64,000 bases of DNA from an uncultured Prevotellaceae bacterium (GTDB lineage Bacteria > Bacteroidota > Bacteroidia > Bacteroidales > Bacteroidaceae): positions 62,001 through 126,000 of the forward strand of contig ONFA01000003.1 in NCBI GenBank assembly GCA_900316975.1, given 5' to 3'. Each line of letters starts with the position of its first letter. The first letter of the stretch is position 1. The notes under the pieces are model-generated. The model was not told the origin of the DNA and ran no database searches. It was given only the letters and a program-made list of their open reading frames with translations. Positions 7,037 through 16,888 of this stretch are shown here, piece by piece. The position numbers and the translations under genes were made by a program.

Positions 7037-7155
7037 GAGCGTCCCTGCCTGGATTTTTCAAAGTCTGCAATTCACTTACTACATCATCAGCAATGTACGA
7101 GTCGCTGAAGGTGTAGAGGCATCCCCTTTCATCTTGCAACGCGTGTTTTTACTCA

Positions 7156-7225
7156 GCCAAGCAATTCATTTTGCTCATGCGCATGAGGTAGCGTAGCGGT
7201 GCTGTGCAGCCTTCTTGGCGGCATT
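7156..7225 (-). pseudogene. Degenerate fragment of the 3' end of nifJ
   Basis: On the minus strand these bases read NAAKKAAQHRYAT before diverging, which matches the C-terminal segment DAAKKAAQHRYAT of the full-length pyruvate:ferredoxin oxidoreductase encoded at 13334-16888. The nucleotide match covers the run from GCTCATGCGCA to GCAGCCTTCTTGG with small deletions. It lies just after the end of the SANT-domain reading frame and marks the left edge of the accessory block. The bases between 7037 and 7150 show a weak coding-like minus frame (ALQDERGCLYTFSDSYIADD) that may be another gene remnant. Confidence 0.75.
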
Positions 7226-7232
7226 AGAGAGG

Positions 7233-7454
7233 TTAGATAAGTCCTAATTTCCTTAATCTTGAACGGATGGCACCAGGTTTTCGGGCAAAGAGTTCGCAAA
7301 GTTCTTCGGTGTTTTTGCCTGCTTTGAACAGTTGGATGAGGGTTTCTTCTTCTGACTGAGTCCAAGGTTTGTAGGCATTAGGGTGTTCTTTTCGGGTTTC
7401 TACGATATAGTTGGGGGTATCATCTTTAGATATGACACCTTGGATGGTTTTGTA
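7233..7454 (-). pseudogene. In-frame SANT/Myb-like C-terminal extension beyond a stop codon
   Basis: Immediately after the TAA (7455-7457) that ends the upstream frame, the same frame continues for 73 codons to a TAA at 7233-7235. The segment contains a typical tryptophan-anchored SANT/HTH unit (KPWTQSEEETLIQLF, then ELCELFARKPGAIRSRLRKL), a module often found at the C-terminus of Bacteroidales nucleic-acid enzymes. It has no start codon or ribosome site of its own near its 5' end. It is therefore best read as the severed tail of the SLOG-nuclease protein, by a recent nonsense mutation, or as a product of stop-codon readthrough. Confidence 0.7.
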
Positions 7455-8573
7455 TTATGATGAAAACTCGTCAAAGCAGAGTGGGGCATTGATGTTCGTT
7501 CGTTTGAAAAGCTTGAGTTGTGAAGGTTCATACACAAGAGCGTTCGGGTTCGTTTTGCTGGGTGTCATTACGAAAGTGGCTTTTTCCAAAGGAATGATAT
7601 AGATGTCTTCTGGTTCGCATGGTTCTCCACCAATGCCGAGAAAGATGAACACGGGCAAGTCTCTTTCTTCGGAAAATTCTTGATAAGCAGTGAGTTGTTC
7701 AGGCGAGAACAAATCCATCATCGCGGAATGATTGAGGAACTTCCTCCACTTACATTCAATGGCGACATTGTGCTTTGTTTCCACTTCTTCAATCAGAAAA
7801 TCGGGGTAACTATTGTTCTTGGGAAACACATCACCCATTGTCTTGTCACCTCTCCATTCCTTCAGCACATACTTATCGTTCTTTATATCCAACAACTCCA
7901 GTACAAACTCCTCAAATTCACGTCCTTTCAGCACATCCTCAGGCATGGTAATGGCACGGATGCGTTCTCTTACAGCAAGATATGTTCGGTTCAGTCGTTT
8001 CTTGATTTCGTGAATACTGTAGTCTTCATAGAACATCCTCAACAGAATCTTGTCTTCTCCAACTGTCCATCGCTGATAACTGTTATCCGGCTCTGCCGCA
8101 ATGTTTGACGTAATATTATCCGTAAGAGCCTCAAAGTTGGTCTTGCCAGATAACAACGGGAACAGACTCCCATATTTGTCAATATATCCACCCACGATAC
8201 GGTCTGCCACCTTACTGATAAGATACTCATTTCTATCTCTTGGTGACCACCGCCTTCTGTCCATTTGTTTCATTACCACAACCAGCATCCGTCCCTCTTT
8301 CAAGGCTTTCTGTATCTGCACGTTATTCTCCTCCCGAAACCGATTCATCACCACCAATATTGTAGGCACTTGATTCACCACCAGCGACTTCATCACCTCC
8401 ACCTCCAGTTCCGACGTATTGCAACACACAACCACATCTTTCTCTGTCAGCGATTCCACCCATCCAAAAATCCTCTCATACGTTCCCCATGGTGCTCGCT
8501 TCGAACACACAAACAAAGTCTTCTTTCTCTTCAGAAGTTCTTGATTCCCTATATATTGGATGGCACGAAACAT
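7455..8573 (-). CDS. SLOG/DprA-like, SANT and PD-(D/E)XK nuclease multidomain protein
   Basis: A 372-residue protein, not a family I can name. Residues 1-140 look like a DprA/SLOG Rossmann domain (TLFVCSKRAPW, VPTILVVMNRF, then PRDRNEYLISKVADRIVGGY, the latter like the DprA R-x-RN-I motif). Residues 165-208 form a SANT/Myb-like helix-turn-helix (RWTVGEDKILLRMF ... LAVRERI). Residues 215-330 fit a restriction-type PD-(D/E)XK fold: GREFEEFVLELL, Asp258 in YPDFLI, Glu273-Cys-Lys275 in VAIECKWRKF. All three parts suggest DNA sensing or cleavage. The frame continues after the stop into a second SANT unit. A -7-like TACTTTTG lies at 8630-8637 upstream. The context is an accessory block, so a defence or DNA-uptake role is possible but is inference. 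Confidence 0.6.
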   Translation of the reverse strand: MFRAIQYIGNQELLKRKKTLFVCSKRAPWGTYERIFGWVESLTEKDVVVCCNTSELEVEVMKSLVVNQVPTILVVMNRFREENNVQIQKALKEGRMLVVVMKQMDRRRWSPRDRNEYLISKVADRIVGGYIDKYGSLFPLLSGKTNFEALTDNITSNIAAEPDNSYQRWTVGEDKILLRMFYEDYSIHEIKKRLNRTYLAVRERIRAITMPEDVLKGREFEEFVLELLDIKNDKYVLKEWRGDKTMGDVFPKNNSYPDFLIEEVETKHNVAIECKWRKFLNHSAMMDLFSPEQLTAYQEFSEERDLPVFIFLGIGGEPCEPEDIYIIPLEKATFVMTPSKTNPNALVYEPSQLKLFKRTNINAPLCFDEFSS

Positions 8574-8866: not shown

Positions 8867-9892
8867 TTAGCAAAAATCATCGAAGACCTCGCCACCAGTC
8901 CATTCTTTTCCTTGGGCTAATGTGAAATATTTTAGGGCTCCTTTTTCTTCAAAAAATGTTCCTTTGCTTTCATGAAAAAAAATCCCATCTTTATAGGTTA
9001 CGCGCGATAGTGCCCAAGGTTTCATGGAGTGTTCCTCACCATTCCGTGTCATCACCCAAAGCGATGTGCCTTCCTCGACAATGGCGGAGTCCACAACAAG
9101 TGAATTATATAGGTTGTTTCTGCAGAATACAGTATTAATCTCTAAATTCGATTGATACATTTTGAGGGGATTGTCTGTCAGTTCTTTGGGACAACATGGA
9201 AATTCAGATGGTGTGCGCCAACCGATTTGTACCGCATTGGGAGTGAGGGATTGCGTTTTATTGGAGTTTGTGACAGGCTCTGGCGTTATATGCTTTTGTT
9301 TGGGGGACATTGGAGAATAAGATAGGAATGTAGACTTCCGATCTTGAAATATCCACTCGCCAAGACTCCCACCCTGTGGCTTGGGATGCTCTTTTGCCCA
9401 GTTGGTCAGTCGCTCTAATGAAGTACGCGCTTCTTCTGGAGAAACAGCCCGCATCCAATTGAAATTTGGGTCTGTCTTTTCGTGTCCTTGCAAGATGGAC
9501 GGGTCAGCAAGAAAAACTTCAATGCTACCGCAAATGTTCTCTATCCTTGCACGGGTAATGGGATTGTTCAAAGCATTTTCCAATCGTGTCAACCATCGTA
9601 GATTCTCGGGGCGGTTATTGCGTCGGTTCGTGTCGATGTGGTCAACAACGTGCTGCTCTGTAGGTGGATTTCCATGAAAGGCAAAGGCCACAATCCTATG
9701 GACTCTTTGCCCCGCAATTTCCATGTAGCCAGTCTTCTCGTTTGGCTTTCCGAACGTCCAAACATTATCATCCTTGCGGATGCGTTTTCCTTCGCGTGGA
9801 TGACGCATGACTGCACCATTGTCTCGAACCGAATAGTGCTCGTCCTTGTAAACGCAGTCCTTAACTTCGTTGAAATCGTCGACACTTATCAT
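8867..9892 (-). CDS. HNH endonuclease (HNH_3/NUMOD-type), free-standing
   Basis: A 341-residue protein with a homing-endonuclease-like N-terminal half. It contains an HNH_3-type motif, HRIVAFAFHG then VVDHIDTNRRNNRPENLRWLT (positions about 62-100) with the conserved His-Asp-His and Asn residues, preceded by a NUMOD-like strand (GYMEIAGQRV). The C-terminal 230 residues are not recognised and contain a Trp-rich region. It is the last of three closely spaced minus-strand genes (6 bases after the small secreted protein). Free-standing HNH proteins of this type are often mobile, and it lies inside the nifJ-bounded accessory block. The target site and any toxicity are unknown. Confidence 0.8.
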   Translation of the reverse strand: MISVDDFNEVKDCVYKDEHYSVRDNGAVMRHPREGKRIRKDDNVWTFGKPNEKTGYMEIAGQRVHRIVAFAFHGNPPTEQHVVDHIDTNRRNNRPENLRWLTRLENALNNPITRARIENICGSIEVFLADPSILQGHEKTDPNFNWMRAVSPEEARTSLERLTNWAKEHPKPQGGSLGEWIFQDRKSTFLSYSPMSPKQKHITPEPVTNSNKTQSLTPNAVQIGWRTPSEFPCCPKELTDNPLKMYQSNLEINTVFCRNNLYNSLVVDSAIVEEGTSLWVMTRNGEEHSMKPWALSRVTYKDGIFFHESKGTFFEEKGALKYFTLAQGKEWTGGEVFDDFC

Positions 9893-11664: not shown

Positions 11665-11691
11665 TGGGATGATGATATGTAAGTAAGTTTA

Positions 11692-11938
11692 TTACTCTGC
11701 TGAGTAGTCAATCTTGCTCATGCGCACATAGGTAGCGTAGCGGTGCTGTGCTGCCTTCTTGGCTGCGTCGAAGAGCTCCTGAGCCTCGGCTGGACATACC
11801 TTCTTGAGAGAGAGGTAGCGAACCTCACCGTCAAGGAATTGACGGAGCAGCGAGTGCATGCTGAATTCATTTGAGCATTGCCGAGTCGTGACGGAAGAAG
11901 ACGAAGTCAATGTCTGGAAGTTATCCCAGTTAGGAGCC
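11692..11938 (-). pseudogene. Second partial copy of the nifJ 3' end, with an internal insertion
   Basis: The minus strand reads APNWDNFQ, then about 25 foreign residues (TLTSSSSVTTRQCSNEFSMH...), then FLDGEVRYLSLKKV and onwards to the same terminal residues KIDYSAE as full-length pyruvate:ferredoxin oxidoreductase. The nucleotide match to 13334-13507 is nearly exact outside the roughly 72-base insertion. The match extends downstream through the terminator and ends upstream at GGAGCC near 11938. Only about 58 codons of the 1184-codon gene are present and no start is evident, so it is a non-functional tail duplicate rather than a gene. Confidence 0.85.
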
Positions 11939-11997
11939 TGTTCAGTCGCACAGACTCTTATTTTATTGGATAAGTTCTGCAATAAAACAATAAAATA

Positions 11998-13307: not shown

Positions 13308-13333
13308 TTTTGGATTGATGTTATGTAGGTTTA

Positions 13334-16888
<3,555 letters not shown>

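Follow-up and report, generated by a model that had tools for sequence, protein, structure and literature searches.

The stretch of DNA analysed here (the window, 64,000 nucleotides, part of contig C51 of genome G000), from a gut-type Prevotellaceae bacterium, carries a solitary gene, exchanged horizontally, whose product is probably a DNA nuclease. Its product combines a DprA-like domain, a SANT-like helix-turn-helix and an Hjc-like nuclease, and a second, C-terminal SANT module has been lost recurrently; the likeliest role would be to protect the cell from phages or from other DNA that invades it. In the window, the C-terminal module is cut off by an in-frame TAA. Sequence comparison identifies this codon as a single, recent and private nonsense event and as one among some ten independent events in which a dispensable, putatively DNA-binding tail was lost. 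With about ten such losses, a stop that was puzzling by itself becomes an ordinary evolutionary pattern, and the gene family offers alleles with and without the tail as a naturally occurring series.

Domain composition of the fusion protein

The gene comprises the following features:
7455–8573, minus strand: intact reading frame of 372 amino acids (DprA/SLOG-like domain, SANT-like domain and PD-(D/E)XK nuclease), stop at 7455–7457
8121–8573, minus strand: DprA/SLOG-like domain, residues 1–151, RN motif (R114, N115) and GS motif (G135, S136) kept
7938–8078, minus strand: first SANT/Myb-like helix-turn-helix, residues 166–212, weak match to Pfam Myb_DNA-bind_6, three helices at residues 170–208 in the model
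7578–7937, minus strand: PD-(D/E)XK nuclease, Hjc/RecU-like, residues 213–332, with KGREFEE (E219, E221), PD258 and E273-C-K275
7455–7457, minus strand: in-frame TAA, private to the window genome among the homologues found
7233–7454, minus strand: stranded continuation with a linker and the second SANT module (SANT 7236–7382, stop 7233–7235), in frame in 12 relatives

The initial annotation had described the N-terminus as DprA/SLOG-like, and both profile and structure comparisons agree. Alignment A4 has 71 members, both full-length relatives and relatives with a single domain; of these, PF02481 matches 20 (best 5e-8), TIGR00732 matches 14 and the PADLOC model PsyrA matches 22 (best 7e-15). Neither PF02481 nor TIGR00732 matches the window protein itself, so it is not assigned to DprA proper. 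When the N-terminal domain was compared with ten resident DprAs by hhalign (probability 86.8%, P=4.2e-6), R114-N115 was paired with the RNR motif of DprA, and CCNTSE with the S-G-L-A-x-G-I-D phosphate/ssDNA loop. This loop is not conserved: the fusion protein has CCNTSELE in its place (consensus C-[CF]-N-[ST]-x-E), and S-G is retained in many stand-alone relatives. The alteration of the phosphate-binding loop makes the ligand uncertain. In summary, the window protein shares with DprA/Smf (PF02481, TIGR00732) the Rossmann/SLOG core and the aligned R-N and G-S motifs. It differs from them in its replaced loop, in not being a full DprA and in its fusion to a SANT domain and a nuclease.

The structure was modelled with AlphaFold2 on the intact protein of the related genome G038. 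With A4 as input, the model reached a mean pLDDT of 88.5 and fell below 50 only at residues 373–386, the linker at the position of the stop; it superseded a model from a six-sequence alignment (pLDDT 39.8), which was unusable. Foldseek searches of the PDB returned the DprAs of Helicobacter and Streptococcus (E from 2.3e-5) and the antitoxin ShosA (8zva, E=3.8e-4) for the N-terminal domain, and archaeal Hjc (E from 3.7e-5) and RecU (E=3.0e-4) for the nuclease, all with a probability of 1.0. When the PDB was searched by sequence profile, alignment A1 gave no match and A4 only a weak one to DprA (E=0.07). The nuclease proposed from the letters alone is thus recovered as a fold containing the acidic helix, the PD and the (D/E)-x-K motif. 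Asp258, Glu273 and Lys275 occur at the positions given for them, and together with E219 and E221 they are invariant in 16 full-length sequences. By sequence and model, the predicted nuclease has a complete PD-(D/E)XK active site. The PD-(D/E)XK fold and the KGxxxE, PD and E-x-K motifs are those of the Hjc/RecU Holliday junction resolvases, whereas identity is only about 15% and the domain forms part of a multidomain protein. Relatives of this domain found across Bacteroidota (L061, L062, L065, L066, L069, L113, L121) appear to be membrane-anchored, with an N-terminal hydrophobic segment, an acidic helical region resembling TerB and then the nuclease.

Both SANT modules give weak Pfam Myb matches below the cut-off (E 0.001–0.01) and form three helices in the model. 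The C-terminal module, of approximately 55 residues (xHPNAYKPWT...IRSRLxKLG), also recurs on other Bacteroidales proteins. Read by eye from the sequence, its carriers are RecQ helicases, methyltransferase-like proteins, an HD-domain hydrolase and several proteins of 640–880 amino acids. One such RecQ helicase is encoded in the window's own genome (G000:C66, L122:2358-4448), and further carriers lie at L058, L129, L130 and L132. Judged by these matches, the second SANT module is not unique to the nuclease fusion.

The domain order had been described as one without a known name, and it is nameless in the libraries searched. The window protein matches no family above the cut-off in Pfam, NCBIfam or PADLOC; against the PADLOC 2023 models, the full-length protein gave 0 families for the window and for G038. 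As an architecture, SLOG-SANT-nuclease found no family match in Pfam, NCBIfam, PADLOC, the PDB, or phage and plasmid collections. It may have been described elsewhere, the literature covered being that under open licence.

Fate of the C-terminal SANT tail

The 372-residue frame, the TAA and the 74-codon continuation all lie where the initial annotation had placed them. Past the TAA, 73 sense codons and a stop follow in the same frame, ending at 7233. Base composition alone would leave 73 codons open with a probability of about 2.4%; this figure is irrelevant here because the post-stop frame is colinear with the in-frame protein of relatives. The proteins of G038 and G025 run colinearly with the window frame across the stop, with a whole-length identity of 91–97%, and the post-stop peptide matches a profile of the C-terminal SANT built from relatives with E=6e-42. 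The suggestion of a second SANT domain beyond the stop was therefore correct. Uninterrupted homologues were looked for in related genomes and found. The stop position is a sense codon in G038 (97%), G025 (90–93%) and G017 (71–75%), where the whole protein lies in one frame. The homologues do not always end at the same stop, and no relative keeps that of the window. Between the window and G038, five differences are found in the 73 codons after the stop, two of them nonsynonymous, and three substitutions in the tail are specific to the window lineage. The sense codon in three close relatives and an almost unchanged tail are what mark the nonsense mutation as very recent, as had been suspected.

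Genome searches gave 32 homologues, 31 with the DprA-like N-terminus and one with the SANT-nuclease part only. The C-terminal SANT is intact in 12 of the 32, broken or cut in 10, where a remnant can still be recognised, and absent in the other 10. The lesions in the broken set differ. The window has a nonsense codon; G446, G839 and G827 have frameshifts in the linker, G838 has one at the end of the nuclease, and G853 has one inside it. In G809 and G829, the tail is truncated at the start of the SANT module, and in G003 and G006, a stop or frameshift is followed by decay. When the remainder of the protein is used for a maximum-likelihood tree, the tail changes state on it at least ten times, which is equal to the value for shuffled labels, and broken tips are sister to intact ones in five pairs (L001/L002, L004/L005, L092/L093, L096/L097 and L085/L089). 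The tree itself cannot separate gain from loss; it is the remnants that give the direction as loss. In unsaturated pairs, the core (SLOG, first SANT and nuclease) has a dN/dS of about 0.05–0.2 with or without the tail, and the intact tail has one of about 0.07–0.23. By these ratios, purifying selection acts on the core in every lineage compared. Taken with the recurrent loss, they indicate a tail that is useful where kept yet dispensable, on a core that is maintained. The 372-residue form would be expected to have stayed active. In G446, the detached C-terminal SANT lies in an overlapping frame (L044:2518-2788) in which an ATG of its own shares bases with the upstream stop (ATGAATGA), and this tail might be translated separately as a small protein.

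The initial annotation had also considered readthrough into two isoforms, with and without the second SANT. On such a reading, a regulated or leaky TAA would give small amounts of the long form. The post-stop frame is still protein-like, with the few differences from G038 given above, and beyond this pristine tail nothing speaks for it. Relatives encode the tail in one frame or lose it by different lesions, and the frameshifts among these could not be bridged by readthrough. The stop itself is shared with no relative. Moreover, the nucleotide after the TAA is T, and TAA followed by T is a strong termination context. Readthrough is hardly credible under these circumstances. Translational re-initiation of the window tail is ruled out, as no ATG, GTG or TTG restart codon occurs in frame in the continuation. 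Programmed frameshifting is ruled out as a rule of the family, since the lesions differ in kind and place.

The same continuity in relatives and the same pristine tail would be expected if the TAA were a sequencing or assembly error in a gene that is actually intact. However, tail loss is so common in the family that no error is needed, and the window's genome is 98.8% complete with 0.14% contamination. We consider this explanation improbable for the window; some of the single frameshifts, as well as the TAA, could be assembly errors, the named matches being metagenome assemblies. Most likely, the window cell makes only the 372-residue SLOG-SANT-nuclease form.

Distribution, neighbourhood and putative role

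The gene family is found almost only in one Bacteroidales family, and full-length copies occur in few genomes of the genus. No relatives were found in phages, plasmids or IMG/VR; therefore, the gene is not carried by known mobile elements. Its neighbourhood differs in most genomes, with the gene standing alone among unrelated genes in other genomes, and a search for a constant operon partner gave none. Neighbours of the defence or toxin-antitoxin type are frequent. They include a PIN toxin (G025), HigA-type HTH proteins, an HsdM type I methylase (G836), DUF3990 (G828 and, by eye, G745) and an MNT-type nucleotidyltransferase (G839). A pair of AAA and DUF4276 genes that scores as PADLOC HEC-01 lies directly behind the gene in G819. 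Another such pair, of an AAA ATPase and DUF4276, lies in G025 (L030:1803-3700), within an array of PFOR-end copies of the kind treated below and close to the PIN toxin and a GIY-YIG protein. As raw counts from which background frequency is not subtracted, these neighbours are only suggestive of a defence role. Housekeeping genes surround about half of the copies.

This last setting would agree with a housekeeping or competence-linked function, in which a DprA-type loader and a resolvase process incoming ssDNA or recombination intermediates, and the DprA and Hjc/RecU folds are both related to recombination. Against it stand the patchy distribution, the mosaic structure produced by recombination and the canonical DprA that the window's genome already encodes separately, and we regard such a function as unlikely.

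DprA homologues are known outside competence. E. coli is protected from T7 and lambda by the DprA-PRTase system of P2-like phages, and shosTA, syrTA and rqlHI each use a DprA homologue as the antitoxin (PMC9122126). Stand-alone relatives of the N-terminal domain score as PsyrA, and ShosA is among the structural matches. The protein could accordingly be read as a selfish, toxin-like element, in which the DprA-like half restrains the nuclease like a PsyrA/ShosA-type antitoxin fused to its toxin, and truncation alters the control. The frequent toxin-antitoxin neighbours fit this idea. It is nevertheless decidedly unlikely: the stand-alone DprA-like proteins examined showed no recognisable RecQ or PRTase neighbour in the loci read. 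Beside the fusion gene itself, no RecQ-like helicase or PRTase toxin gene was recognised in the window or in the ORF lists of 25 loci read by eye. In PsyrA, RqlI and ShosA, the partner is a separate RecQ-like helicase or PRTase toxin, whereas the window protein is a fused nuclease with no constant partner. RqlI offers a further parallel to the tail loss, in that its C-terminal HTH is dispensable (PMC4670107).

An antiphage-type nuclease is the most likely role, for which we infer activity, ligand, substrate and defence function alike. The simplest model would place sensor and effector in a single protein, and all its steps beyond domain identity are conjectural. The DprA-like Rossmann (SLOG) domain would probably recognise ssDNA or a nucleotide ligand and detect exposed ssDNA or branched intermediates. 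The SANT domain would hold duplex DNA, and the junction-type nuclease would then cut the DNA detected; the second SANT would act as an accessory DNA-binding tail. The coupling of a sensor-type SLOG domain to an enzyme has precedents in Thoeris ThsA and in phage proteins that join SLOG to HTH, HNH or exonuclease domains (PMC9503650), the phage cases involving a nucleic-acid enzyme. Those fusions are described as belonging to ADPr/NAD-linked SLOG clades, whereas the window protein is DprA-like and carries an Hjc-like nuclease. Tentatively, the family may represent a class of single-gene defence, in which a DprA-type sensor and a Holliday-junction-type nuclease act on ssDNA-bearing or branched phage DNA, and an optional, swappable SANT tail tunes target range or toxicity through its loss or exchange. 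In roles other than competence, DprA-like proteins are increasingly recognised as phage sensors. A DprA-like sensor and a nuclease in one chain make sensing and output testable in a single purified protein.

Allelic exchange and the PFOR-end copies

The window gene and its G025 counterpart are strongly diverged over codons 1–242 (dS 0.7–1.6) and nearly identical over codons 243–446 (dS about 0.04 at the 3' end). This contrast indicates that the nuclease-plus-tail half has been exchanged between alleles. A cluster of substitutions is also seen at window codons 102–127 (8193–8270) against G038, in an otherwise nearly identical gene, and its pattern suggests gene conversion over a short tract of the DprA-like domain.

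The nuclease gene lies within a variable segment flanked by copies of the PFOR gene's 3' end:
7146–7231, minus strand: eroded copy (about 81%) of the PFOR/nifJ 3' end, directly past the second stop
11680–11939, minus strand: second copy (about 95%) of the PFOR 3' end
13325–13515: native PFOR (nifJ-type) 3' end, the native end from 13334

Two of the copies also include the terminator region. A 191-base query from the PFOR end finds several copies in G038, G025, G017, G005, G016 and G010; most of the 45 genomes that represent the genus have a single copy. In a genome of another genus (G268), the gene again follows closely downstream of PFOR, preceded by a HigBA-like pair. The arrays look like a hotspot of integration or duplication at the 3' end of a protein gene; no integrase was recognised among their listed ORFs. 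Adjoining the nuclease gene in the window is a gene for an HNH_3 homing-type endonuclease (8867–9892, minus strand), and G038 has in its place a gene for 629 amino acids without a Pfam match (L029:10756-12642).
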